A DNA stretch of 64,000 nucleotides from Streptomyces venezuelae (GTDB lineage Bacteria; Actinomycetota; Actinomycetes; Streptomycetales; Streptomycetaceae): positions 5,563,501 to 5,627,500 of the forward strand of contig NZ_CP029190.1 in the NCBI RefSeq assembly GCF_008642295.1, read 5' to 3'. Both the position numbers and the translations under genes were made by a program. This document shows, piece after piece, positions 2,270 to 16,036 of the stretch (positions are counted from its first letter, which is position 1; each line of letters begins with the position of its first letter). The notes under the pieces were generated by a model that saw nothing but the letters and a program-made list of their open reading frames with translations, was not told the DNA's origin and did not search any database.

Positions 2270-3298
2270 CTACCTCAGCCGCCCCGACCGGGTCAGCTGG
2301 TCCAACGGCCGCAGCACACAGCGGTCCAGCAGCAGCGAAGGGCTGATCAGGGTCGAGCCGACCTCGTGCCCCTCCTTGACACAGCCGTACGGGGAGCTGT
2401 GCACCATCCGGTCGCTGCCCACCGCCGAGATCCGGGCCGCCAGCGCCGACTTCCGGGCGCAGACCACCGCCGGCCCGCGCACCTCGTCCGTGAGCCGGCC
2501 GCCCTCGACCCGCCGCACCCACAGCAGCTCCAGCACCACCAGCCCCCGCACCGACCAGCCGCCCACCGGGGTGCCCAGCAGCCAGCCCGCGCCCATCCGC
2601 CGCAGCAGCTCCGCCGGCGGACATGCCCCCGGGGCGACCTCCAGCACGCTGCACCGGGGCAGTGCGGCCCCCGCCGGGCCCCGCCCGTGGCCGGTGCTCC
2701 GCCCGCCGCTCAGCCGCCGGGTCGCCCGGTGGGTCAGCAGCCCCGTCCAGAGTCCGTCCGCCAGCAGGGTGACCGGCCGGGCCGGGGTGCCCTCGTCGTC
2801 GCGCCGGTAGCTGCCCGCGTACGGGCGGGCGCCCGGCCGGTCCCGGACCGTCAGGGGGGCCGCGGTCCACCGGTCGCCCAGCCGCCGGTCGGTGCCGGCC
2901 GCCTGCGCGGCCAGGTAGTTGTCCGCCTCGCTGGTGTGCCCGAAGCACTCGTGGACGAACACCCCGGCCGCGGCCGGCGAGAGCAGCGCCGGCCCGGCCA
3001 GCGGCCCGTCCACCGGCACCCGCTGCGCCACCAGCTCCCGGTCCCTGCGCAACTGTCTTATCCCGTCCGGCAGTTCACGGGCCACATAGCCGCCGTCATA
3101 GGCCGCCACCCCCCACTGCGGGGTATGGCCGTGCCGGGCCGGACCCAGCCGGATGTGCACCCGTATCAGGCCGTCGGCCCGCTCCCGCCGCGCTATCGAG
3201 GCCGCCGGGCCGAACACCCCGGCCGCCTCCCGCAGCCCCGCCGCCAGCAGCTCGTCCACGGCCCGGCCGGCAGCCCCGCCCGTCGTCCGGTCGGCCAC
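2270..3298 (-). CDS. TldD-type metalloprotease, putative RiPP leader peptidase
   Basis: This 342-residue protein carries the TldD zinc motif HECFGH (HExxxH), preceded by GVFVHE as in TldD, and the later TldD-like blocks GTPVGGWSV and GPAVV. TldD normally pairs with TldE to unfold and degrade peptides and mature microcin B17. Here it is the last gene of the RiPP operon, with its GTG four bases after the HEXXH gene stop, and no TldE partner is present. Removal of the leader from the 41-residue precursor is the inferred job. It is somewhat shorter than free-standing TldD (about 480 residues), suggesting a trimmed N-terminal domain. Confidence 0.8.
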   Translation of the reverse strand: MADRTTGGAAGRAVDELLAAGLREAAGVFGPAASIARRERADGLIRVHIRLGPARHGHTPQWGVAAYDGGYVARELPDGIRQLRRDRELVAQRVPVDGPLAGPALLSPAAAGVFVHECFGHTSEADNYLAAQAAGTDRRLGDRWTAAPLTVRDRPGARPYAGSYRRDDEGTPARPVTLLADGLWTGLLTHRATRRLSGGRSTGHGRGPAGAALPRCSVLEVAPGACPPAELLRRMGAGWLLGTPVGGWSVRGLVVLELLWVRRVEGGRLTDEVRGPAVVCARKSALAARISAVGSDRMVHSSPYGCVKEGHEVGSTLISPSLLLDRCVLRPLDQLTRSGRLR

Positions 3299-3301
3299 CG
3301 C

Positions 3302-4357
3302 TCAGCCGCCGCTCAGCCGGCTTATCGCGGCCCGGCAGCCGGCCAGCAGCCGCTCCCCGGCCGGCGTCGGCTCGGCCACCTCCAGCAGGTTCTTCTCCGC
3401 GGTCCGCAGCTGCTCCACCTTCTGCTGCCGGTACCGCTCCAACCGGTCGAGCTCCACCGGATCCCGCTCCACCGCCTGATGCCGCCAGGCCGCGTACGCA
3501 TCGTTGATGAAGGACAGGATGCCGTGCAGGATGTGCCCCAGCGGGCGCTCCGCCCCGACGAACGGCGAATGGTGGGTGGCCTTCGGGTTCCGCACCAGCG
3601 CCACACAGTCCAGCACCCCGCTGAACCGCTGGTGGGTCCCCTCGTGCACCAGCGTCTGGGCCAGCATGTACGCCGGGCGCTCGCTGGTCAGCACCAGCCC
3701 GCGCAACCCGTGCACACTGAAGTTCAGCGGCTTCAGCCCCCGGTGGTTGCCCAGCGCGGCGAACGCCCGGATGTCCCGCCCGGCCAGCGCCAGCCCCTCC
3801 GGCCACTCGGCCGCCAGCAGGTCCGCCGCCGCCTGCAGCCGGGCCGCGAACGCCCCGGCCCGGGCCGCATCCAGCCGCACCGGCCACTCGTCGCCCTCCG
3901 CGACCCAGTCCAGCAGCAGCGAACCCCCGGCGAGTCCCGCACCCGTGACCACCGGAGCCGGCCCGTCCGGCGAGCCCAGCCGCACCACCGCCGGCGCCGC
4001 CCCCGGGTCGTACGCCAGGCAGTCCGCCAGCACCCGCAGCAGCCGCGCCGGGTCCACCGAGCGCGCCTCGGCCCGCCACACCCAGCCCGTCACCTCGGGC
4101 CGCAGCGCCCAGCGCAGGGCCGCATCCACATCCATGGCGTCCAGCAGCTCCCGCACCCGGGTCAGCGCCGGATCCGCCCGGTGTTCCCCGTCCAGCCGCT
4201 GCACCGCCCGCAGCACCCGCACCAGGTACTGCCGGGCCACCACCCGGTTCAGCTGCTCATTGGCCGCCACCGCCGCCGCGTCCTCGGCCAGCACGATCAG
4301 CGCCAGGTCCGGCAGCCCCGCCGCCGACCGGTCCGCCGCCAGGTCCTTCACCCTCAT
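3302..4357 (-). CDS. HEXXH-motif peptide-modifying protein (candidate aKG-dependent beta-hydroxylase)
   Basis: This 351-residue protein has the sequence LVHEGTHQRF around residue 235, matching the HEXXH motif domain found beside RiPP precursors (model TIGR04267). Members of that family have been renamed alpha-ketoglutarate-HExxH peptide beta-hydroxylases after characterisation. Other family-like features are a helical N-terminus and a conserved GNHRGLKPLNFSVHGLRG block before the motif and SFINDAYAAWRH after it. It overlaps the JmjC gene by four bases (ATGA) and so is coupled to it. The likely substrate is the precursor peptide at 11607-11732; hydroxylation is inferred from the family, not from this sequence. 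Confidence 0.8.
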   Translation of the reverse strand: MRVKDLAADRSAAGLPDLALIVLAEDAAAVAANEQLNRVVARQYLVRVLRAVQRLDGEHRADPALTRVRELLDAMDVDAALRWALRPEVTGWVWRAEARSVDPARLLRVLADCLAYDPGAAPAVVRLGSPDGPAPVVTGAGLAGGSLLLDWVAEGDEWPVRLDAARAGAFAARLQAAADLLAAEWPEGLALAGRDIRAFAALGNHRGLKPLNFSVHGLRGLVLTSERPAYMLAQTLVHEGTHQRFSGVLDCVALVRNPKATHHSPFVGAERPLGHILHGILSFINDAYAAWRHQAVERDPVELDRLERYRQQKVEQLRTAEKNLLEVAEPTPAGERLLAGCRAAISRLSGG

Positions 4358-5175
4358 GCCCGTCCCCTTCCGTCCGCCGCCACGTCCGCCGCCACGTCCG
4401 CCGTGACGTCCCGCAACGCCCGTACCAGTGCCTCCTCCAGCCGCTGCGGGTCCTGCGGGCCCACCCCGGCCGGCGGCAGCGGCTCCCACCACGCCCGTTC
4501 CTCGGACAGCCGGCGGAGCAGCGGGCGCAGGTACCGGATCAGGGCGCTCTCCGCATTGCAGGAGAAGGAGACGCTGACCGAGCCCGCCGCCGAAGCTCCC
4601 TCCTCGGCACCCGCCGTCCCCTCGACCCCCTCGTGCGGGGCGAACACCGGCAGGTACAGCACATCGCCGGGCTCCAGCCGGACCCGGAACGGCTCCTCGG
4701 GCAGCCTTCCCGAGGGCACGAACCCCTTCACGTCCAGCATCCGCTTGCGCCGCCGGTCCGGGGAGGTGTGCTCCGGCAGCCCCACCAGCCAGTCCTTCGC
4801 ACCCTGCTGCTGCACCACGAAGTTGTCGCTGTGGTCGAAATGGCAGCCGATGCCCGCACCCCCGCCCCGGGTCACCGACAGGTCTGCGGTGCACTCCCGC
4901 CACCCGAACCGGCCGGCCAGCACCGCACAGGCCGCATCCAGCGCGGGCAGCACGTGCTGCGCCTGGTTCACGAACAACACCTGCCCGTCCTCCCGCCGCC
5001 GGACCTCCGCCCCGGCCGGCTCCTCCCGGGCCAGCCGTGCTTCCAGCGCCTCGATCCGGTCCCAGTCCAGGGCGGGGGAGAGGAACTCGCTTCCGCAGCC
5101 CCGCCACACCACCGGCCGCCGGCGCCAGAAGGTCTCGTAGAACTCGCCGATGTCCAGTACGGCCCGCTCGGTCAT
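4354..5175 (-). CDS. JmjC/cupin-type Fe(II) oxygenase
   Basis: This 273-residue protein has the JmjC/cupin facial triad: HFD in GCHFDHSDNF (about 120-128) and a second histidine in FAPHEG (about 195), with EPGDVLYLP in between as in RoxA-like and cupin-8 oxygenases. GAKDWLVGLPEH resembles the usual GxKxWxL segment. These enzymes use Fe(II) and 2-oxoglutarate to hydroxylate protein or peptide side chains. It sits between the HEXXH gene and an unknown gene, overlapping each by four bases. A second peptide hydroxylase in the same operon is the inference. The C-terminal tail (TADVAADVAADGRGRA) is repetitive and probably disordered. Confidence 0.82.
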   Translation of the reverse strand: MTERAVLDIGEFYETFWRRRPVVWRGCGSEFLSPALDWDRIEALEARLAREEPAGAEVRRREDGQVLFVNQAQHVLPALDAACAVLAGRFGWRECTADLSVTRGGGAGIGCHFDHSDNFVVQQQGAKDWLVGLPEHTSPDRRRKRMLDVKGFVPSGRLPEEPFRVRLEPGDVLYLPVFAPHEGVEGTAGAEEGASAAGSVSVSFSCNAESALIRYLRPLLRRLSEERAWWEPLPPAGVGPQDPQRLEEALVRALRDVTADVAADVAADGRGRA

Positions 5176-5930
5176 CGCAGCCCCCAGTTCCGCAGCCGTG
5201 CCTCCAGGGATTCCCGCACCTTCGGCGCGAGTGATTCCGCCCGGCCCGCCAGGACGGCGACCAGCGCGTCGAACACCGGCCGGGTACCCCGCCCGACCAC
5301 ACAGCGGCCCGGCGCCGCCAGGTAGAGGGTCGGCTCCAGCGCCCAGTCGGCCGGGGCCTCCGCGTATTCGCGGAACGCGCACTGCACCCCGCCGTGCGCG
5401 GCGAACCCGGCCAGCCCCACCGCGAAGGTGGCCTCCGCCCCGGTGGCCACCGCCTGCGCCACCCCGACGGCCGCCTCGTGGTGCACCAGCGGCTCCACCC
5501 CGGCCAGCGGGGGCGGGGACCCGGCCACGAACCGGTGGAAGCACTCCGGCAGCAGCCGCCCGCGCCCGGCTGCCGAGAACGGCACGTCCCGGAACTCCCG
5601 GAACTCCGCCGAGGCCACGAACAGTTCGGCCACCTCGTTCGCGGTCTGCCCGGTCCGCTCACGGATCACCTCCAGCGAGCGGGCGAAGCCCCGGGCCAGC
5701 CCCGGGCCGGTCCCGGTGCCGCCGCTGACCACCTCGGAGCGGATGTTCCGCCCCACCAGGGCGAGTTCGCGGACGTCCACCCGGGAGAAGGCGGCGACCA
5801 GCTCCGGGGCCAGGCCCAGCCGCGGATCGGCCGGCCCGTGCTCGATGAACGCGGCCCGTACCTCCTTGTCGTACAGCAGCCGGTCCAGTACCGCGAGGAT
5901 CCGGTCGTGCCGGTCGTGGTCAGCGGACAC
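5172..5930 (-). CDS. unrecognised protein of the RiPP operon
   Basis: This 252-residue soluble protein belongs to no family I can name. The N-terminal 45 residues (ILAVLDRLLYDKEVRAAF, then LGLAPELVAAF) weakly recall the LigA/Nif11-type helical leader-binding fold. The rest is alanine-rich and helical, with RERTGQTANEVAEL and an LVHHEAAVGVAQAVATG stretch. There are no clear metal motifs beyond scattered His. Its GTG start at 5930 lies 11 bases inside the end of the DUF692 gene, and its end overlaps the JmjC start by four. DUF692 enzymes usually work with a dedicated partner that binds the precursor, so this gene is a candidate for that role; this is inference from position only. Confidence 0.7.
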   Translation of the reverse strand: MSADHDRHDRILAVLDRLLYDKEVRAAFIEHGPADPRLGLAPELVAAFSRVDVRELALVGRNIRSEVVSGGTGTGPGLARGFARSLEVIRERTGQTANEVAELFVASAEFREFRDVPFSAAGRGRLLPECFHRFVAGSPPPLAGVEPLVHHEAAVGVAQAVATGAEATFAVGLAGFAAHGGVQCAFREYAEAPADWALEPTLYLAAPGRCVVGRGTRPVFDALVAVLAGRAESLAPKVRESLEARLRNWGLR

Positions 5931-6876
5931 CGGCACGGGCCTCCTCCTGCCAGGCACGGACCAGCGCGAACAGCCGCTCGGCGTTCGGCCGCGACTTCGG
6001 CACCAGCTCGCCCGCCGCATCGAAGTTCGGGTCCTCGTAGGTGACCCCGGTCAGCCGGGGCATCCGCGGCAGCAGATGGGCCAGCAGGGTCAGCTGCTCG
6101 TCGAGCAGCACCCCGTGGTGCAGGTCCCGGAACCGGCCGTCGACGATCTGGCAGCCCGACAGGTGCACCTCGTGGCACCGGTCCAGCGGCAGCGCCTCCA
6201 GCCCCTCGAACATGCGCTCCCCGGTCCGCCCCATCAGCCACTGGTAGGCGAGGATGTGCCCGATGTCGATGGTGGCGAGGGCGCCGGTCTCGCGGATCAC
6301 CGTGTCGAAGAAGGCGAACGCGTCCATGGTCCCGACCAGGAAGCTGCCGCCCTCGGTGAACCCGGGGAACTCCACCGACAGCGGGGCGTCCAGCCGCCGC
6401 ACCCACTCGCCGACATGGCCGATGCACCGGCGCAGCCCCTCGGCCGTCAGCACCGGGGGCATCGGGTACGGCAGACTGCGCCCGCCCAGCGACCAGATGC
6501 CGAGGTCCTCGATGACCCAGCGGAAGCCGTAGCGCTCGATCAGCGCATTGGTGAACTCCGCGACGGCTTCCTTCCCGTACTCCTCCGGGCTGCCCGTGTT
6601 CAGCATGGTGTGGTGGAAGGCACGCGGCCGGTCCGCCCCGAACAGGCCGAACAGCCGGTCGTAGGCCGGGAAGTAGCGGTCCGGCTCCAGCGGGCCGTAG
6701 TCGATCGGCTGGAAGGCCACGAACATGTAGTCGTAGTCCTGTGCGTGCCGGCCGAGGAAGGCCGCCACCTGGTCCGTGGGCCGGCCCTCCCCGGATTTCT
6801 CGAAGCCGATCCGCTCGCCCCACACCAGGTCCATGCCCAGCCCGAGACCGAGCCGCTCCGTTGCCGCGGCGTCCAT
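5920..6876 (-). CDS. DUF692 multinuclear non-heme iron oxidase (MNIO)
   Basis: This 318-residue TIM-barrel protein shows the DUF692 pattern: GLGLGMDLVW at the start, FHHTMLN, VIEDLGIW, SVEFPG, the metal-binding ATIDIGHI, EVHLSGC, DLHHG and GVTYEDPNFD. The family, which includes MbnB and TglH, holds two or three irons and makes oxidative rearrangements on RiPP precursors, classically at Cys but also at Asp or Asn. The precursor here has no Cys, so a non-Cys reaction is expected. The start at 6876 shares one base with the stop of the radical SAM gene (TGATG). Confidence 0.88.
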   Translation of the reverse strand: MDAAATERLGLGLGMDLVWGERIGFEKSGEGRPTDQVAAFLGRHAQDYDYMFVAFQPIDYGPLEPDRYFPAYDRLFGLFGADRPRAFHHTMLNTGSPEEYGKEAVAEFTNALIERYGFRWVIEDLGIWSLGGRSLPYPMPPVLTAEGLRRCIGHVGEWVRRLDAPLSVEFPGFTEGGSFLVGTMDAFAFFDTVIRETGALATIDIGHILAYQWLMGRTGERMFEGLEALPLDRCHEVHLSGCQIVDGRFRDLHHGVLLDEQLTLLAHLLPRMPRLTGVTYEDPNFDAAGELVPKSRPNAERLFALVRAWQEEARAGVR

Positions 6877-8834
6877 CAGATGCCCCCTTCCACTTCGAGC
6901 AGGCGTTTCTCCACCATCCGGGAGAGCCACCGGCGGGCCCCCGGTCCGTCTCCGGTCAGCCGCCCGTCCCCGGCCCGGGCCACCCCCGGCGGCAGCGCGG
7001 CCATCCGCGGCCACGCCAGGTCCGCCAGGAACCACTGCGTCCGTACGACGTCCAGCGCGACCCCGAACCGCGGCCGGACCGGCGCCCCCGCATCCACCAG
7101 GGCAGCCGCCGGGGCGGCCCCGGCCCCTGCCTCCGGCCGCTGCGCCAGGTCGGGCCGGCTCGACCGTTCCGCGTCGGGCACGGCCTCCACCCCCATCCGC
7201 AGCAGCCGCTGCCGGGCCTCCTCGGTGGCCTCCGGGTCCAGCAGGGCGCCACCGACCCGCCCGGCGGCGAAGGCCAGCCCCTCATTGGTGACCAGGTACT
7301 CGTCGTACTGGTCGTACTGGTCGTGTTCGCCGTGCTCGTCCCCGGCGGTGTCCGGGTGGGCCCGCCGGCTCTCCCACAGATGGCTGCCCGGCTCGGCGAC
7401 CAGCAGCTGCATCGTGTCCAGGCCCATGTCCGAGGGATGCCGCCGGATGACCTCGACGGTGTCCCGGTACCCCTGTTCGGCCCCCGGATGCGGAAAGCCG
7501 TCCATGAACGACAGGTTGGTGGTGATCCCCGCCGCGGTCAGATTGGCCACCGCCCGCTCGGCGTGCCGGGCGTCCTGGCCCTTGCGCAGCGAGTCGAGGA
7601 TGCCCTGCGCATCGGTCTCGTACCCCGCCGACATCTGGACGCACCCCAGGGCGTGGAGCTGCTCGCAGAACGCCGGGTCGGCCAGCTCCGGTTCGAGCCG
7701 GGCCCGGACCCGGAAGGTCAGCGCCGCGCCGCGGTCGCGGACCGCGCGCATCACCCGCATCAGATGCCGGAGTCCGGTGTTCTCGTCGGTGACCGCCACA
7801 TCGGTGATGCCCAGCCGGGCGGCCAGCTCGACCAGATGGCCCGCCGCGACCTCCGGGGAAACCTGCTGGAAGGCCCGGGCGTCGTGGTAGCGGTTGCCGT
7901 ACGAGCAGAAGGTGCACTTGCCCCAGAAGCAGCCGACGGTCAGCCGGTAGGGGAACTGGTGGGCCTGGTTGCTGTAGTCGGCGAAGTCGAACTGGCCGAA
8001 GTCCGGCATGGGCTGCTCGTTCAGGACGAAGCCGTCCGCGAGACCCGGCTCGTGCGGGGCTGCGTCCGGTGCGCCCGGGCCGTCCGGTGCCTCCGGGCCG
8101 TCGAGGATCCGGCCGAGGTAGTCCTCGCCGTGGCCCAGGCACCAGTGGTCCACGTGCCGGGCCGCCGCCACACTGCGGCGCAGCAGCCGCGCCCACATCT
8201 GCACGGTCGGCCCGCCGACCATGATCCGCAGGTCCGGGCGCTGCCGCTTGAGCAGGCTGCACAGGGCGAGGGTGGGCACCAGCTGGCTGAAGAAGGGGAC
8301 GGAGAAGGCCAGGACCCGGGGCCGGTGCCGGTCCAGCAGCTCCGCGAGCCGGGCCGCGCCCCAGCGGGCCGACCAGCCGGTGCTGCCGACCTCGACGAGC
8401 CGGTCCATCCGGGACAGCGGGAAGGGACCGGGCACCATCCAGCCGTCCTCGGTGGCCTGCTGGGTGACGTACCGGACGATGGCGCGGATGGCCACCTCCT
8501 GGTCGAAGCCGGAGGTCCGGTCGCGGGACCGGTCGAGCAGCCGCTGGCCGTGGTCCTCCCGGTAGCGCTCGCTGATCCGGCGGAAGGCCTCCTTGGCGGA
8601 GCCCGGGCCGGCGCCGGGCCCGGGGCCCGGGCCGGCCGGTGCCGCCTTGGCGGCCGACCGCCGGCGGATCACCGCGGTCCGGTACTCCAGGTTGAGATCG
8701 CGGCAGACCGGCCGGTAGCCGCGGGCGGTCCAGGCGGCGGCGAGCTGGGGCAGGGCGAGGTAGGGGAACTGCACGGCCTCGCTCACCGGCGGCATCACCA
8801 GCAGGACGTCACTGCCGTGGTCCGGGCCGCTCAC
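6876..8834 (-). CDS. B12-binding-domain radical SAM enzyme
   Basis: This 652-residue protein starts with a cobalamin-binding-like domain (DVLLVMPPVSEAVQFPYLAL, later IMVGGPTVQMW) and continues with a radical SAM core whose cluster motif is CFWGKCTFC at about residues 285-293. Spacing is CX4CX2C rather than the usual CX3CX2C. GYETDAQGILDSLRKGQD is the usual SAM-binding/substrate segment. A C-terminal extension includes an acidic EHGEHDQYDQYDEY stretch. Such enzymes methylate unactivated carbons or form C-C links in RiPPs. The GTG start overlaps the UPF0489 gene by four bases. Substrate inferred to be the local precursor. Confidence 0.88.
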   Translation of the reverse strand: MSGPDHGSDVLLVMPPVSEAVQFPYLALPQLAAAWTARGYRPVCRDLNLEYRTAVIRRRSAAKAAPAGPGPGPGAGPGSAKEAFRRISERYREDHGQRLLDRSRDRTSGFDQEVAIRAIVRYVTQQATEDGWMVPGPFPLSRMDRLVEVGSTGWSARWGAARLAELLDRHRPRVLAFSVPFFSQLVPTLALCSLLKRQRPDLRIMVGGPTVQMWARLLRRSVAAARHVDHWCLGHGEDYLGRILDGPEAPDGPGAPDAAPHEPGLADGFVLNEQPMPDFGQFDFADYSNQAHQFPYRLTVGCFWGKCTFCSYGNRYHDARAFQQVSPEVAAGHLVELAARLGITDVAVTDENTGLRHLMRVMRAVRDRGAALTFRVRARLEPELADPAFCEQLHALGCVQMSAGYETDAQGILDSLRKGQDARHAERAVANLTAAGITTNLSFMDGFPHPGAEQGYRDTVEVIRRHPSDMGLDTMQLLVAEPGSHLWESRRAHPDTAGDEHGEHDQYDQYDEYLVTNEGLAFAAGRVGGALLDPEATEEARQRLLRMGVEAVPDAERSSRPDLAQRPEAGAGAAPAAALVDAGAPVRPRFGVALDVVRTQWFLADLAWPRMAALPPGVARAGDGRLTGDGPGARRWLSRMVEKRLLEVEGGI

Positions 8835-10114
8835 ACCGGCTCCCCGGACGGTATTCCGGGCGGCATTCCGGACGGTGCCGTATGCGCCGGCCCGGTCAGC
8901 CGGTCCAGCAGCGCCAGCCGGCCGGCCGCCTCGGCAGCGGTGTCCGTGTCGCCGCACTGCCGCGCAAGCACCCGCAGGGTCCGCCACACCCCGGCCCGCA
9001 GCGGCAACTCCTTGGCCAGGCCGTGGAGTTCGGCCAGGGCCGGGCCGTTGCCGTCCAGTCGCGCGGTGGCCCGTACCGCCATGATCCGGGCATGCATCGC
9101 GAGGGTGTCCCGGCCGTCCACGGCGATCGCCTCGCGGAGCCAGTCCCGGGCCGTGCGGTGGCCGCCCCGGGCATAGTGGGCGATCCCGATCTTGTACGCG
9201 AGCCAGCTCGACCGGTATCCGCCGGCCGCAGCCCTCCCGTAGTACTCCTCCGCCGCGCCCGGGTCCTCGGCGGCCAGCGCCAGCCCGCGCAGGGCCACCG
9301 CCACTCCGGCGGCCTCCGGCGGCCCGCCGGACCCGGCCGCCCGGCCGTCCGCCGGACCGTCCGGCAGTGCTCCGCCCCGGTGGACGGTCAGCATCAGGTC
9401 CTCCGGCCACGGAGTCGACGGCAGGAAGGAGGAGGTACGGGCGTTCAGGCCGAGCCGGGCAGCGACGTCCGTACCGACCCGGCGGAACTCCCCGGGCAGG
9501 AAACCGGACCGGGTGGACCAGGTCATCGCCGACAGCTCACCGCCGCAGGCGCCGACCAGCTCGGCCAGCTCCTCCACCGAGTGATCGGCCCGGCCGTGCT
9601 CGTCCATCAGCCAGTCCAGGTCGATGTCCGCCACCACGTCCCCAGTGACGTGGGCCGCCAGATGCCGGGGCAGCAGATCGGGGGGCACCACGGCCAGCCG
9701 TACCCCGCACAGCCGCACGGCCAGGCAGCAGTCCGTGGTGTGCGGGTGGACGGGGGCGCCCCCGGTGGCGATCAGCGAGACGGAGTCGACCGCGGTCCGC
9801 GCCCAGCCCTCGTGGGAGGTCCAGCTGGGCACCCAGACGAGGTCGGTGAGCCCGCCCGCGATGGCCGCGGCCGACCAGAAGTCGTCCAGCCCGAACGCGC
9901 CGGGCACCCCGCGCACCGGGAGCCGCCGCAGCAGACCGGCCGGGTCCGCGCCGTGCGCGGCGGCGTGCCGCAGGGCGGCCTCGCCGCCCGGGGCGAGCGG
10001 TTTGAGGTCGAGGTGGCGGTCGAAGCACACGACGGTGCGGTCCCGGTAGCGGCCCTCCGGCCAGAGGGCGGCCACCTCGCCGTGCTCCTCGAAGAGGTCA
10101 ACGTGTCCCGGCAT
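8831..10114 (-). CDS. UPF0489 family protein with C-terminal TPR-like region
   Basis: This 427-residue protein has an N-terminal UPF0489 domain: VVCFDRHLDL (the DxHxD-like segment), TDLVWVPSW, and DIDLDWLMDEHG. UPF0489 is related to the arginase/deacetylase fold and has acidic and His residues that could bind metal, but no assigned reaction. From about residue 265 the sequence becomes a helical repeat (GLALAAEDPGAAEEYYGRAA, YKIGIAHYARGGHRTARDWL), as in tetratricopeptides. Its position between exporter and radical SAM gene, with 17-base and 4-base overlaps, ties it to the RiPP pathway as an enzyme or as a precursor-binding scaffold. Confidence 0.75.
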   Translation of the reverse strand: MPGHVDLFEEHGEVAALWPEGRYRDRTVVCFDRHLDLKPLAPGGEAALRHAAAHGADPAGLLRRLPVRGVPGAFGLDDFWSAAAIAGGLTDLVWVPSWTSHEGWARTAVDSVSLIATGGAPVHPHTTDCCLAVRLCGVRLAVVPPDLLPRHLAAHVTGDVVADIDLDWLMDEHGRADHSVEELAELVGACGGELSAMTWSTRSGFLPGEFRRVGTDVAARLGLNARTSSFLPSTPWPEDLMLTVHRGGALPDGPADGRAAGSGGPPEAAGVAVALRGLALAAEDPGAAEEYYGRAAAGGYRSSWLAYKIGIAHYARGGHRTARDWLREAIAVDGRDTLAMHARIMAVRATARLDGNGPALAELHGLAKELPLRAGVWRTLRVLARQCGDTDTAAEAAGRLALLDRLTGPAHTAPSGMPPGIPSGEPV

Positions 10115-11525
10115 TCTCGCCCTGTTCCGCGGGATCGGCCCGGCCGGGTCCCCGCTGGTCCGGTACTCCGTCGTCGGCGGCCGGGGCCGGCCCCGAGGTG
10201 AAGCGCCGGGCGTCCGTGCTGAGCATCGTCAGCACGGTGGTCACGATCACCAGCCCGCCGGCCCACAGCATGATCGCCTCGACCTCGAAGAACCGCAGCA
10301 GGGCCGCGCCCAGCAGCTGGCCGAGGGGGAGGGAGGCGAAGGAGAAGAAGAAGTCGGCGGAAAAGGCCCGGCCGTGCAGCCGCTCCGGCACCTCCCGGCG
10401 CAGGCCCGCCATCTTCACCACGTCGAAGGCCTGTTGGCCGACCCCGCCCACCACGAACGCGGCCATCAGCAGCAGCACCGAGCCGGTCAGGACGGGCGCC
10501 AGGGCGGTCAGGCCGAACAGCGCGAGCAGCGCCAGCGCGACCAGGCCGCGCCGGCCGCCGCGGATCCGGCCGCCGAGGAAGGCCCCGGCGACGGTGCCGG
10601 CCGCGAAGGAGCCGAGGACGAGGGCGTAGACGGTGGCGGAGTGCTCCCGTTCGATGATGAGCACCGGCAGGGCGACCATCCAGGGCCCGACGGCGAACAG
10701 CACATGGACCACGGCCAGTACCTGGACGTATCGCAGCCAGCGGATCCGCCAGAGCACCCCCAGCCCGCCGAGGGCGGACCGCAACAGCGGCTCGTCGTCT
10801 TCCTGTTCGCCGTCCCCCGGTCCGCCGTCCCCGGCCTTCAGGTCCGCCTGCCCGTCGGCCTTCTGCTCGGCGGCCTTCTCCCCGGCCCGCCGGGCGGCGC
10901 TGTACCGGCCGCCGGCCCAGCGGGTGGCCGCGGCGGAGAGTCCGAAGGCGAGAGCGGCGGCCAGGGCGCCCACGGAGGGGCTGAACAGGGCGATCAGTGC
11001 GGCGGCAAAGGTCGGGCCCACGATGCCGGAGAGGTTCCGCATGCCTTCGAGCAGCCCGTAGGCGGCGGTGATCCGGCTCTCCTCGGCGGCTTCCGCCTCC
11101 GCTGAGCGGGGGTTGAGGTCCGGATTGCGGGGAAGGATGCGGGGGGCGATGACGAGCAGGGCCGGCTCGCTGACCGCCTCACAGAGCCCGATGACCACGG
11201 CCACGGCCAGGACCAGGGCGTCCAGGTTTCCGTCCCAGAACAGGGCGAGCGCGATCAGTGCGCCCACCCGGGTGGCATCAGCGCTCACCGCGGCGATGAC
11301 CGGATCAATTCGGTCCAGTACGGCACCGCTGAACAACACCACGCCGCCGAGCGCAAGGAATCGGGCGGCGAATGCGGCGCCGATCGTTTCCGCGGGAGTT
11401 CCCGCCTGCGCAGCGGAAACCACCACGATAATCGGAAAAAGCGCGTCGCCGAGCAGGGAGACCGCCTGCCCGAAACAAAGCGCTGCGAACCGCCGGTGGC
11501 CGAGCAGCTCAAGATATATTCTCAC
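10098..11525 (-). CDS. MFS transporter, putative peptide exporter
   Basis: This 475-residue membrane protein has about 12 hydrophobic helices split by a charged, low-complexity loop (GEKAAEQKADGQADLKAGDG) near residues 215-245. The opening RRFAALCFGQAVSLLGDALF matches MFS drug-exporter proteins of the MFS_3 type, and a second half repeat runs LAVVHVLFAVGPWMVALPVL. It is the first gene after the precursor and its hairpin, so export of the finished peptide, and self-protection, is the probable role. The GTG at 11525 (VRIYLELLGHRRF) is used; the 3' end overlaps the next gene by 17 bases. Confidence 0.85.
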   Translation of the reverse strand: MRIYLELLGHRRFAALCFGQAVSLLGDALFPIIVVVSAAQAGTPAETIGAAFAARFLALGGVVLFSGAVLDRIDPVIAAVSADATRVGALIALALFWDGNLDALVLAVAVVIGLCEAVSEPALLVIAPRILPRNPDLNPRSAEAEAAEESRITAAYGLLEGMRNLSGIVGPTFAAALIALFSPSVGALAAALAFGLSAAATRWAGGRYSAARRAGEKAAEQKADGQADLKAGDGGPGDGEQEDDEPLLRSALGGLGVLWRIRWLRYVQVLAVVHVLFAVGPWMVALPVLIIEREHSATVYALVLGSFAAGTVAGAFLGGRIRGGRRGLVALALLALFGLTALAPVLTGSVLLLMAAFVVGGVGQQAFDVVKMAGLRREVPERLHGRAFSADFFFSFASLPLGQLLGAALLRFFEVEAIMLWAGGLVIVTTVLTMLSTDARRFTSGPAPAADDGVPDQRGPGRADPAEQGENAGTR

Positions 11526-11557
11526 CGGGAACGGGAAGCCTTTCGGGTGAGGCGGCG

Positions 11558-11600
11558 CACCGCCGGCCCCGGGTGGCGAACCGCACCGGGGCCGGCGGTG
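11558..11600 (-). terminator. 15-bp hairpin between precursor and exporter genes (attenuator)
   Basis: Perfect arms at 11558-11572 and 11586-11600 enclose a 13-base loop, only six bases after the precursor stop codon. No T-run follows. It probably stops part of the transcripts or stabilises the precursor mRNA, so that substrate is made in excess over the enzymes encoded downstream. Confidence 0.7.
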
Positions 11601-11606
11601 ATCGGG

Positions 11607-11732
11607 TCAGTTCTTGAAGCGGAAGGCGTGGAAGGCCACGCCCTCGTCCAGGTCCTCGGCCTCGAGGACTTCCAGGCTGTCGAGGGACTCGATGTCCTCG
11701 ATGATGGTCTGTTCGTTCACGGACTCGCCCAT
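11607..11732 (-). CDS. RiPP precursor peptide, 41 residues
   Basis: The peptide starts MGESVNEQTIIEDIESLDSL and continues EVLEAEDLDEGVAFHAFRFKN. It has the classic precursor make-up: an acidic helical leader with Leu/Ile at regular spacing, a possible cleavage region around DEG, and a short aromatic/basic C-terminus with no Cys, Ser or Thr. ATG at 11732 has a good ribosome site (GAGGA, five bases upstream). It is the first gene of the operon and lies just before a hairpin. The last five residues, FRFKN, resemble the FxSxx-COOH ending of another HEXXH-linked peptide class with Phe in place of Ser. The C-terminal Asn is a plausible DUF692 target. Confidence 0.8.
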   Translation of the reverse strand: MGESVNEQTIIEDIESLDSLEVLEAEDLDEGVAFHAFRFKN

Positions 11733-12077: not shown

Positions 12078-12446
12078 ATGAACATCAAGGCCACCAAGGC
12101 CACCAAGGCCACCACGACCCTCTGGCGTCCCACCGGCCCGGCCGAGCTGGACCTGGTCCGCGCCCTCGACTGGCGGGCCTGGCCGCCCCGGCTCCCGGAG
12201 CAGCCGATCTTCTACCCGGTCCTCAACGAGGACTACGCGATCCGTATCGCCCGCGACTGGAACGTCAAGCACAGCGGCGCGGGCTTCGTGACCCGCTTCG
12301 AGGTGGACTCCGCCTTTGTCTCCCGCTACCCGGTGCAGCAGGCCGGCGGGCAGACGATCCTCGAGCTGTGGGTACCCGCGGAGGAGCTGGACGAGTTCAA
12401 CGCGCATATCGTCGGCCGCATCGAGCTGGTCCACGAGTTCCGCTGA
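12078..12446 (+). CDS. conserved small protein often labelled ADP-ribosylation/crystallin J1
   Basis: This 122-residue protein has a conserved block LWRPTGPAELDLV, WPPRLPEQPIFYPVLNEDYA, RDWNVKHSGAGFVTRFEV and ELWVPAEELDEFNAHIVG, which I recognise from actinomycete proteins carrying the label ADP-ribosylation/crystallin J1. That label is historical; no catalytic residues are evident and the real function is unknown. The N-terminus has three copies of a nine-base unit AAGGCCACC (KATKATKAT), an expansion not usual in the family, so the true start could also lie just after it. Confidence 0.75.
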   Translation: MNIKATKATKATTTLWRPTGPAELDLVRALDWRAWPPRLPEQPIFYPVLNEDYAIRIARDWNVKHSGAGFVTRFEVDSAFVSRYPVQQAGGQTILELWVPAEELDEFNAHIVGRIELVHEFR

Positions 12447-12474
12447 CGGCCGCTGCCGTGGCGGTTGCCGCGGC

Positions 12475-13041
12475 TTACTGGCCCACGCGGCCGTCGACCC
12501 GCTCGCGCAGCAGGTCGGCATGGCCGCAGTGGCGTGCGTACTCCGTGATCTGCATGACCACGATGTCGCGGATCTGCACGTCCCCGGCGGGTCTGGCGCC
12601 GAGGTCGGCGAAGCCGGCGATGAACCGGTCGGTCAGCTCCCGCTCGGCCCGCCACTGCCGCCACGCGTCCGCCACCACCTCCGGGTCGGCGGTCGCGCCG
12701 TTCCAGTCGCCGTCGCGGTCCTCGGCGGTGCGGTAGATCCTGGGAGAGTCCTGGCCGGCCAGCCGGCGGAAGTGCCGCTCGTCCTCGGCCATGTGCCGCA
12801 CCAGCCCGAGCAGGGACATCGTGGACGGCGGTACGGCGCGCCGGGCCAGCTGGTCGGCGTCCAGGCCGGCGCACTTCATCTCCAGCGTGAGGCGGAAGTG
12901 CCGCAGGCTGTCGAGCAGGGTGCTGCGTTCGTCGACGGTCTCCGGTCCGCTCTCCCGCGGGTCCTCGTCCGCGTCGACCCACATGTCGGTGTGGACGGTC
13001 GCCTGCGTCCACCGGTTCGCCGTCTGTTCCTCTGTATCCAT
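12475..13041 (-). CDS. DinB/DUF664 family protein
   Basis: This 188-residue four-helix protein has the DUF664/DinB features: TLLDSLRHFRLTLEMKCAGLDADQLARRAVPPS, then MSLLGLVRHMAEDERHFRR with the first metal-ligand His, and a C-terminal TEYARHCGHADLLRERVDG with the other histidines. Most actinomycete members are possible mycothiol-dependent S-transferases or metal-binding hydrolases; the substrate is unknown. The ATG at 13041 (MDTEEQ) is chosen because the frame upstream of it is not conserved in character. It converges with the gene at 12078. Confidence 0.85.
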   Translation of the reverse strand: MDTEEQTANRWTQATVHTDMWVDADEDPRESGPETVDERSTLLDSLRHFRLTLEMKCAGLDADQLARRAVPPSTMSLLGLVRHMAEDERHFRRLAGQDSPRIYRTAEDRDGDWNGATADPEVVADAWRQWRAERELTDRFIAGFADLGARPAGDVQIRDIVVMQITEYARHCGHADLLRERVDGRVGQ

Positions 13042-13090
13042 GCGCGCATGGTCGTGCGCTTCCCCGCCACCCGCCACCGAATAACCGGCC

Positions 13091-13846
13091 TCAGTCCGGG
13101 CGGCGGACGGCGATCCGCAAGGCCACGGAGTACTGCTCCTCGACCTCACCGGAGGGGAACCGGGCGGCCAGCAGCGCCCGTTCCGCCGCGAGGAACTCCT
13201 CGCCCTCGGGGCCCACGGTCAGGAACAGCGAGTGGGTGGAGAGTTTGGCCAGGTGGGTGCCGATCGGGATACGTCGGGACCAGGTGAGGGTGTGGTCGCT
13301 GAAGCCGAGGCCGAGATCTGTGTCGGGCACGGTGTGGTCGGCGATGTACCAGCCCTCGCCGAACCGGGCCGTCAGCCGGGCGTTCTGCTCGGCGATCCAT
13401 GGCACCGACACGTCCGGCTCGTTCCAGAACAGCGCGAGCGCGCCGCCGGGGCGGAGCACCCGGGCGGCCTCCGGGACGGACCGGGCCGGGTCGGTCCAGT
13501 GGAAGGACTGCGCGTACGTCAGGAAGTCCAGCGAACCGTCCCGCAGCGGCAGCCGGTTGCCGTCCCCCCGCACCACCGGTACGCCGGGCAGCCGCCGCCG
13601 GAACTCCACCGCCATGCCCTCACCGGGCTCGACCCCCACCACCCGGGCCCCGCGGTCCCGCAACTGGGCGGTGGCGATGCCGGTGCCGGCGCCGACGTCG
13701 GCGACCCGGGCGTCGCGCAGGGCGCGCCCGGAGACCTGCTCCAGGGTGTCGAACAGGGGGGCCGGGTAAGGGGGCCGGTAGGTGCCGTAGCGGGCGGCGG
13801 CCCGGCTGAAGGACCGGGCGCGGATCTCGCTGGAGGGCCTTGTCAT
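13091..13846 (-). CDS. class I SAM-dependent methyltransferase
   Basis: This 251-residue protein has Rossmann motif I VADVGAGTGIATAQL (about 48-62), motif II VVGVEPGEGM, then DGSLDFLTYAQSFHWTD and ARVLRPGGALALFWNEP (motifs IV/V). SFHW is typical of the ubiE/methyltransferase-11 group acting on small molecules; the substrate is not readable. The start is either ATG 13846 (MTRPSS) or ATG 13855 nine bases further up; both are compatible with nearby purine-rich sequence. It stands alone, 67 bp from the acyl-CoA dehydrogenase gene. Confidence 0.85.
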   Translation of the reverse strand: MTRPSSEIRARSFSRAAARYGTYRPPYPAPLFDTLEQVSGRALRDARVADVGAGTGIATAQLRDRGARVVGVEPGEGMAVEFRRRLPGVPVVRGDGNRLPLRDGSLDFLTYAQSFHWTDPARSVPEAARVLRPGGALALFWNEPDVSVPWIAEQNARLTARFGEGWYIADHTVPDTDLGLGFSDHTLTWSRRIPIGTHLAKLSTHSLFLTVGPEGEEFLAAERALLAARFPSGEVEEQYSVALRIAVRRPD

Positions 13847-13913
13847 ACCCACCATCCTGCCTTCGGCGGTGCAGCCGGAGTAGTGGGCCGAAACCTGAAC
13901 CACCGGACATGCC

Positions 13914-14891
13914 TCAGGGCAGCAGCAGGTCCGCCCGGCAGGCCGACGGGGTGCCCCACGCATCGCGGAGGGGGCGGGACTTGCGGAGCCAGAGGGACAG
14001 GTCCAGTTCCTCCGTGTAGCCCACCGCGCCGTGCAGCTGCAGTGCCGTCGCCGCCGCCCGGTACGCCGCCCCGCCCGCCGCCAGCTTCGCCGCCGCCACA
14101 TCCCGCCGGTCCAGCCGCACCGCCCCCGCCCAGACCAGCGGCCTGGCGAACTCCAGGCCCAGCAGGGTGTCCGCCAGCCGGTGCTTCACCGCCTGGAAGC
14201 CGCCGACCGGCGCCCCGAACTGGGTGCGCTGCTTCACGTAGTCGACCGTACGCGCCAGCAGCGCCTCCCCGACGCCCAGGCACTGCGCGGCGGTCAGCAG
14301 CCTGGCCCAGCACAGCGCGGTCCCGGCCGCGGCCCGCACCCGCGGCCCGGCGGCCAGCACTTCGCCCCCGGCCGGCAGGACCGACAGTCGCCGGGCCGGG
14401 TCCGTCGACGGCAGGGCCGGCCCGGGGCCCGGCGCCAGCCGGAGTTCGTCCCCCTCGACCGCGAACCGGTACCCGGCCCCGGCCGCCTCCGCGTCCAGTG
14501 CGTACGGGCCGCCGCCCGGCAGGACCAGCGTGGCCACCGCCTCGCCCGCCGCCAGCGCCGGCAGGAACCGCCCGGCCAGCGTGTCGTCGCCGAGCTCCGA
14601 GATCAGCACGGCCGCCGCCGCGGTCTCCACCACCGGCCCCGGCATCCCGGCCCGGCCCAGTTCCACGAAGGCCAGGGCCAGTTCCACCGGAAGCGGCCCG
14701 AGGCCCTCGTACTGCTCGGGCACCGGCAGCGCGAACAGCCCGGTGCCGGCCAGCTTCCGCCACACCTCCAGCCCCGGCGCCGGGTCGCCGGCCCCCCAGC
14801 GGCGGACCGCCGCCGGCAGATCGGCGGCACCGAGCAGCCGGTGCAGCGTACGGGCGAACTCCAGCTGTTCCCCGGTCGGCAGGAAGCGCAT
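13914..14891 (-). CDS. acyl-CoA dehydrogenase, small/partner subunit (steroid block)
   Basis: This 325-residue acyl-CoA dehydrogenase-like protein is divergent: the N-terminal helical part is short, the FAD/substrate middle domain is reduced, and the C-terminal domain has TVDYVKQRTQFGAPVGGFQAVKHRLAD and LQLHGAVGYTEELDLSLWLRKS. The usual catalytic Glu region is not obvious, as in the weaker partners of alpha2-beta2 steroid dehydrogenases. It starts at 14891, sharing one base with the stop of the larger dehydrogenase. Together they match the paired FadE enzymes of HIP degradation, such as the FadE31/32/33 group. The exact paralogue cannot be fixed without alignment. Confidence 0.8.
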   Translation of the reverse strand: MRFLPTGEQLEFARTLHRLLGAADLPAAVRRWGAGDPAPGLEVWRKLAGTGLFALPVPEQYEGLGPLPVELALAFVELGRAGMPGPVVETAAAAVLISELGDDTLAGRFLPALAAGEAVATLVLPGGGPYALDAEAAGAGYRFAVEGDELRLAPGPGPALPSTDPARRLSVLPAGGEVLAAGPRVRAAAGTALCWARLLTAAQCLGVGEALLARTVDYVKQRTQFGAPVGGFQAVKHRLADTLLGLEFARPLVWAGAVRLDRRDVAAAKLAAGGAAYRAAATALQLHGAVGYTEELDLSLWLRKSRPLRDAWGTPSACRADLLLP

Positions 14892-16036
14892 CAGCGGCGG
14901 CCCTTCGGAAGGCCGAGCAGCCGCTCGGCGATGATGTCGCGCTGGATCTCGTTGGTCCCCGCGTAGATCGGCCCGGCCAGGGAGAAGAGCCACGGCTCGG
15001 CCCACTCCCCGTCCGCCCGCTCGGCCTCCGGGCCGAGCAGGTCCAGGGCGGTCTCGTGGAGCGCGATGTCGTACTCCGACCAGAACACCTTGTTCAGGCT
15101 GGACTCCGCACCGATCACCTCGCCCGCTGCGAACCGGGCGGCGTTGGCCCAGGTGAACAGCTCGTACGCGCGGGCCCCGGCCACCGCGTCGGCCACCCGG
15201 TCGCGCAGTGCGGTGTCGGCGGGGTCGGCCGTGGACCGCCAGAGCGCGGCCAGCCGTTCCGCCGCCGCCAGGAACCGGCCGGGGGAGCGCAGGGTCAGTC
15301 CGCGTTCGTTGCCGGTGGTGGACATGGCGATCCGCCAGCCCTGGCCCGGTTCCCCGATCACGTCCTCGTCCGGGACGAACACCTCGTCGAGGAAGAGCTC
15401 GGCGAAGGCCGGCTTGCCGTCGAGGCGGCCGATGGGCCGGACCGCCACCCCGGGCGCCCGCAGGTCGAACATCAGGTAGGTGAGCCCCTGGTGCGGCCGG
15501 GCCGCCCCGGGGTCGGTGCGGAAGATCCCGAAGGCGCGGTCGGCGAAGGCGGCCCGGGACGACCAGGTCTTCTGCCCGGACAGCAGCCAGCCGCCCTCGG
15601 TCCGTACCGCCTTCGAGGTCAGGGAGGCGAGGTCGGAGCCGGCCTCCGGTTCCGACCACGCCTGGGCCCAGACGACCTCGCCGCTTGCCATGGACGGCAG
15701 CACCCGGGCCCGCTGCTCCGGGGTGCCGTGGTCGAAGAGGGTCGGGGCCAGCAGGTTGATGCCGTTCTGGGAGACCCGGCCGGGGGCCCCGGCCGCGTAG
15801 TACTCCTCCTCGAACAGCAGCCAGCCGAAGATGTCGGCGCCCCGGCCGCCGTACTCGGCCGGCCAGGACACCACCGACCAGCGGCCGGCGTACAGCTCCG
15901 CCTCCCACTCCCGGTGCGCCGCAAAGCCCTCCGCCGTCTCCAGCGAGGGCAGCGGGGCGGCCGGGACGTGCGCATGCAGCCAGTCCCGGGCCTCCGCCCG
16001 CAGGGCCTCGGCCGCCGGCGTGTGGGTCAGGTCCAT
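14891..16036 (-). CDS. acyl-CoA dehydrogenase, large subunit (steroid block)
   Basis: This 381-residue acyl-CoA dehydrogenase has WSVVSWPAEYGGRG, the FAD loop WAQAWSEPEAGSDLASL, QKTWSSRAAFADRAF and the C-terminal GPIYAGTNEIQRDIIAERLLGLPKG. The pairing with a smaller downstream subunit is the hallmark of actinobacterial heterotetrameric steroid dehydrogenases. The ATG at 16036 has a good ribosome site, and a KstR2-like operator starts 19 bp upstream. It diverges from ipdF, and the context points to oxidation of a CoA ester of the remaining steroid rings rather than an ordinary fatty acid. Confidence 0.88.
   Translation of the reverse strand: MDLTHTPAAEALRAEARDWLHAHVPAAPLPSLETAEGFAAHREWEAELYAGRWSVVSWPAEYGGRGADIFGWLLFEEEYYAAGAPGRVSQNGINLLAPTLFDHGTPEQRARVLPSMASGEVVWAQAWSEPEAGSDLASLTSKAVRTEGGWLLSGQKTWSSRAAFADRAFGIFRTDPGAARPHQGLTYLMFDLRAPGVAVRPIGRLDGKPAFAELFLDEVFVPDEDVIGEPGQGWRIAMSTTGNERGLTLRSPGRFLAAAERLAALWRSTADPADTALRDRVADAVAGARAYELFTWANAARFAAGEVIGAESSLNKVFWSEYDIALHETALDLLGPEAERADGEWAEPWLFSLAGPIYAGTNEIQRDIIAERLLGLPKGRR

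Follow-up and report, generated by a model that had tools for sequence, protein, structure and literature searches.

A nine-gene operon of Streptomyces venezuelae as a very probable biphenomycin biosynthetic gene cluster

Biphenomycins, which are small cyclic peptide antibiotics, act strongly on Gram-positive bacteria, and Padhi et al. described their mechanism as unknown (PMC12257519). Their biosynthetic pathway of nine genes was published in 2025. The precursor family is defined by the motif FHAFRF (PMC12257519), and the published core is the three residues FRF (PMC12707348). In Streptomyces griseorubiginosus No. 43708, the bip cluster described by Strunk et al. 2025 (PMC12707348) is a single operon that starts with a 41-residue BipA, the last residues of which are FRFRS. 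An MFS protein (B), an arginase (C), a B12 radical SAM enzyme (D) and an MNIO (E) come next, and then a hypothetical partner protein (F), a JmjC protein (G), an HExxH protein (H) and a TldD protein (I). Assays of orthologues described in the text of both papers showed that E together with F carries out double ortho-hydroxylation of FRF, that C converts arginine to ornithine, and that G hydroxylates ornithine at the gamma carbon (PMC12707348, PMC12257519). Ring coupling by D and the trimming of both leader and tail by I were also assayed (PMC12707348), and the pbs pathway of Peribacillus simplex BE23 was reconstituted by Padhi et al. (PMC12257519).

The window analyzed here is a 64,000-nucleotide stretch of Streptomyces venezuelae DNA, in which a minus-strand operon at 2270-11732 carries nine open reading frames, all present and open. 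The start codons were picked from reading frame and overlap, and the features are as follows, each with the evidence for its assignment.

11607..11732, minus strand: bipA, 41-aa precursor MGESVNEQTIIEDIESLDSLEVLEAEDLDEGVAFHAFRFKN (leader, core FRF, tail KN); open reading frame, FHAFRF motif
11526..11606, minus strand: gap between bipA and bipB, forming a strong hairpin rich in G+C; folding against shuffles
10098..11525, minus strand: bipB, MFS exporter; Pfam/NCBIfam, 65% identity to L005
8831..10114, minus strand: bipC, putative peptide arginase (arginine to ornithine); motifs, 67% identity to L005
6876..8834, minus strand: bipD, B12-dependent radical SAM enzyme, predicted to form the biaryl cross-link; Pfam and motif, 63% identity to L005
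5920..6876, minus strand: bipE, MNIO (DUF692), predicted to ortho-hydroxylate both Phe of FRF; Pfam, 86% identity to L005
5172..5936, minus strand: bipF, MNIO partner protein; 63% identity to L005
4354..5175, minus strand: bipG, JmjC-type, putative ornithine gamma-hydroxylase; Pfam and HFD motif, 67% identity to L005
3302..4357, minus strand: bipH, alpha-ketoglutarate HExxH beta-hydroxylase (predicted); TIGR04267 and HEGTH, 67% identity to L005
2270..3298, minus strand: bipI, TldD-type protease, predicted to remove leader and C-terminal tail; Pfam and HECFGH, 63% identity to L005

Six of the eight junctions overlap, by 1-17 bases (B/C 17, C/D 4, D/E 1, E/F 17, F/G 4 and G/H 4), while A/B and H/I are separated by gaps of 81 and 3 bases, respectively. 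The nine-gene, minus-strand operon with overlapping genes that had been claimed by an earlier, sequence-only reading was therefore borne out, as was its view that this is a RiPP operon with all modifying enzymes acting on one short precursor. The core of about ten residues proposed at the same time was not, as the BipA C terminus is FHAFRFKN, that is, the published motif followed by a KN tail, and the published core has three residues.

Profile searches with Pfam and NCBIfam assigned bipB to the MFS family. With Pfam, bipD matched Radical_SAM and B12-binding domains above cut-off, bipE matched MbnB_TglH_ChrH (that is, an MNIO), bipG matched JmjC_2 above cut-off, and bipI matched PmbA_TldD and PmbA_TldD_3rd above cut-off. 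The bipH product matched TIGR04267, the aKG-HExxH-type peptide beta-hydroxylase family (71.5 bits, E 8e-20; cut-off 40 bits). The motifs HFD in bipG, HEGTH in bipH and HECFGH in bipI are intact, and a single MNIO match was found in the source genome at E up to 0.001. There was no Pfam match for bipA, bipC or bipF at E up to 0.1, nor an NCBIfam match for bipF, the orthologues of which, PbsD and BpmF, are named as RRE-containing in the published descriptions. The earlier label of UPF0489 for bipC thus has no backing from Pfam. In the literature, bipC orthologues were annotated as TPR proteins and the enzyme is described as a TPR/UPF0489 arginase (PMC12707348). The arginase motifs EEHGE, DRHLD and DIDLD are present in bipC in all eight close clusters, and a trio of the EEHxE/DxHxD/DIDLD type is given for BipC by the same authors (PMC12707348).

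Two motif details concern bipD and bipI. The cysteine motif of bipD, at 7905-7931, is CX4CX2C (e.g. CFWGKCTFC), and this spacing is present in 19/19 BipD sequences, comprising the window and 18 related loci (L002-L008, L022-L032). The usual radical SAM cysteine motif is CX3CX2C. With the search terms used, no mention of CX4CX2C was found in the main text of either PMC12707348 or PMC12257519. In bipI, all eight close clusters have HExxxH (HECFGH) and no HExxH, the TldD protease motif being written as HExxH by Strunk et al. (PMC12707348).

The operon was compared with the described systems. Likeness to bip of strain No. 43708 and to bpm (PV659837) was taken from the text of the papers, while identities were measured against S. 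griseorubiginosus DSM 40469, which is another strain. The bip cluster as described has the same nine genes A-I, of the same families and in the same order, and a 41-aa precursor with the core FRF common to both, though with an RS tail there and KN here (PMC12707348). The bpm cluster of NRRL 3217, a biphenomycin producer named S. filipinensis in PMC12707348, has the arginase, B12-rSAM, MNIO, RRE partner, JmjC, HExxH and TldD proteins in common with the window, and its precursor motif AFHAFRF is followed by an Arg-Ser tail rather than KN (Padhi et al. 2025, PMC12257519). Two Peribacillus clusters were compared as well: pbs, from P. simplex BE23 (PMC12257519), and Ps_bip, from P. simplex_D (PMC12707348). 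In both, MNIO and partner, arginase, B12-rSAM, ornithine hydroxylase and protease are shared with the window, as are the FHAFRF precursors of pbs; however, pbs has four precursor copies and Ps_bip three, the HExxH enzyme is absent from both as described, and biphenomycin B is the sole product of P. simplex_D.

The DSM 40469 locus (L005) contains nine genes in the same order, with 73% identity between the precursors and the values listed above for B to I. Its precursor is 41 aa long and ends FRFRS, which is like that reported for the published strain of the species and so argues for the biphenomycin identity. In relatives, this operon recurs together with its precursor ending, which makes it more than a chance arrangement. 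Taken together, the nine-gene operon is almost certainly a cluster for the biosynthesis of biphenomycin (bipA-bipI). It is real, but it had been explained before and offers no new type of chemistry; as another intact cluster, it is a possible source of biphenomycin.

By analogy with the orthologues studied experimentally, the steps assigned to C, D, E/F, G and I would be the same in the window cluster. BipE with BipF would convert both phenylalanines of FRF to ortho-tyrosine, BipC would convert the arginine between the two ortho-tyrosines to ornithine, and BipD would form the C-C bond between the two rings. BipG would then hydroxylate the gamma carbon of ornithine, BipH would probably add a beta-hydroxyl to the C-terminal ortho-tyrosine, and BipI would cut off the leader and tail, with BipB presumably exporting the product. 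For BipH, the Results of PMC12707348 contain no experiment, although its abstract states that all maturation steps were elucidated. Strunk et al. contrast the presence of the HExxH gene in a producer of biphenomycin A with its absence in a B-only producer (PMC12707348). Padhi et al. use the words 'likely responsible' for BpmH (PMC12257519), while a later preprint from the same group cites the work as reporting the involvement of BpmH.

The Phe-Arg-Phe core would likely become two cross-linked ortho-tyrosines around a hydroxyornithine, with one beta-hydroxyl. The presence of bipH with an intact motif makes biphenomycin A, with some B, the most likely predicted product. A densely modified product, as the earlier reading had expected, matches the biphenomycin pathway.

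One alternative interpretation is that this is a biphenomycin cluster from which part of the product keeps its Lys-Asn tail, giving a new congener of the biphenomycin C type beside A. The KN tail of BipA does differ from the RS of known producers, and Arg-Ser is retained in biphenomycin C (PMC12707348). However, different tails were removed in vitro by BipI of two species (PMC12707348), so that A or B would normally be the final compound, and we regard the retained-tail congener as possible but doubtful. That the cluster is silent or decayed is a good deal less probable, and nine open frames, intact catalytic motifs and the tight overlaps that have been kept all speak against decay. A new, undescribed RiPP class, which the sequence-only reading had favored, taking the operon to have no described counterpart, is most improbable and was rejected on the published bip and bpm literature, because the genes and their order match bip one to one, as does the precursor motif, and the same enzymes recur in bpm, with pbs also matching (PMC12707348, PMC12257519).

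The biphenomycin assignment was examined further across related loci. A scan of genome contigs gave seven loci. A genus search (392 genomes) gave 10 matches and an order search (391 genomes) eight, each including the source genome, and a phylum search (396 genomes) returned the source genome as sole match; the genus, phylum and order samples overlap in part. In all, 18 related loci were analyzed (L002-L008 and L022-L032, with L003 and L005 taken as the matches in G153 and G222). A precursor open reading frame near a radical SAM or MNIO gene was present in 18/18, and loss of the precursor with conservation of the enzymes, which the earlier reading had named as evidence against its view, is thus not the case. 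The cores were FHAFRF in 12 loci, FHTFMF in one and YHxYxY in five, which correspond to the three classes of motif that Padhi et al. describe (PMC12257519). In a Thermoactinomycetaceae MAG (L006:7677-7884), one open reading frame contains two leader-core repeats, with FHAFRF in each.

Gene presence was scored by tblastn with the window proteins at E up to 1e-5 within each locus stretch, these being ~20,000 bases long except for L008 (15,991 bases), so that a gene counted absent may sit outside the stretch. The arginase was detected in 12/12 FHAFRF loci and in 0/6 with other cores, and its confinement to FHAFRF loci is as the pathway predicts. JmjC was present in 11 of the 12 FHAFRF loci, and HExxH in six of the 12 (three at 28-39% identity), against none of the six others for either. 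Partner F was found in 9/18 related loci, and exporter B and TldD protease I in 11/18 each; with these genes in only part of the loci, the operon appears to have diverged, or been remodelled or reordered, beyond the seven close Streptomyces clusters. This, the different tail and the missing Pfam match for bipC count against the biphenomycin assignment. Linkage to viruses or plasmids was also considered and rejected. A viral contig scan, which detects close relatives only, gave no match, and five of 72,556 plasmid records matched at 23-32% identity, which marks them as distant DUF692 relatives.

Among the eight close clusters, window included, four contain bipH and the other four lack it. For those lacking it (L003, L022, L029 and L030), genome-wide searches also found bipH absent, with a best match at E 9e-5, and biphenomycin B only is predicted for them. 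On a tree of five joined proteins with eight rows, the distribution of bipH takes at least two changes; 96/500 shuffled labellings were as clustered as the observed presence, and on eight rows the distribution is therefore near random. In S. inusitatus JCM 4988 (L004), bipH is present and bipG is missing, its place lying between 11768 and 11843 of that locus, and a search of the genome, for which completeness is not stated, gave no bipG match at E up to 0.001. The predicted product of this cluster is a congener whose ornithine carries no hydroxyl. The variability of bipG and bipH between close relatives suggests that there are natural congeners which structure-activity work could use. A more far-reaching proposal, which we advance tentatively and consider rather unlikely as a whole, is that the window strain is an unreported producer of biphenomycin A together with a new Lys-Asn analogue of C, that the relatives without bipG or bipH make other undescribed congeners, and that gain and loss of the hydroxylases tunes the antibiotic.

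The flanks of the operon, at 815-2224 and 12081-16036, encode a PadR regulator, an SDR, a mycothiol transferase, a methyltransferase and an acyl-CoA dehydrogenase, and these genes look unrelated to the operon. When the eight window flank proteins were compared with the other bip clusters, the sole tblastn match was the SDR (36% in L003). The flanks of the eight close clusters, with ~20 kb per locus overall, were also compared with each other using stop-to-stop open reading frames of at least 120 codons. At >40% identity, all 30 groups of flanking frames join L029 and L030 only; at >30%, 29 of the 32 do so, and the other three groups each join two loci at differing places. No conserved immunity or regulator gene adjoining the operon was found in these flanks, and within A-I no family except the exporter suggests a role in immunity. 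With flanks common to L029 and L030 only, A-I behaves as a unit.

Within that unit, the gap between bipA and bipB contains the hairpin 3' of bipA (11526-11606), which folds at -45.6 kcal/mol (z -3.05), with 1/200 dinucleotide shuffles equally good. The corresponding A-B gaps in the eight close clusters fold 1.5 to 3.2 sd below mononucleotide shuffles, the effect being weak, at 1.5-1.8 sd only, in L003, L022 and L030. One interpretation is that the hairpin may be a partial terminator or an mRNA stabilizer, through which the precursor would be made in excess of the enzymes.
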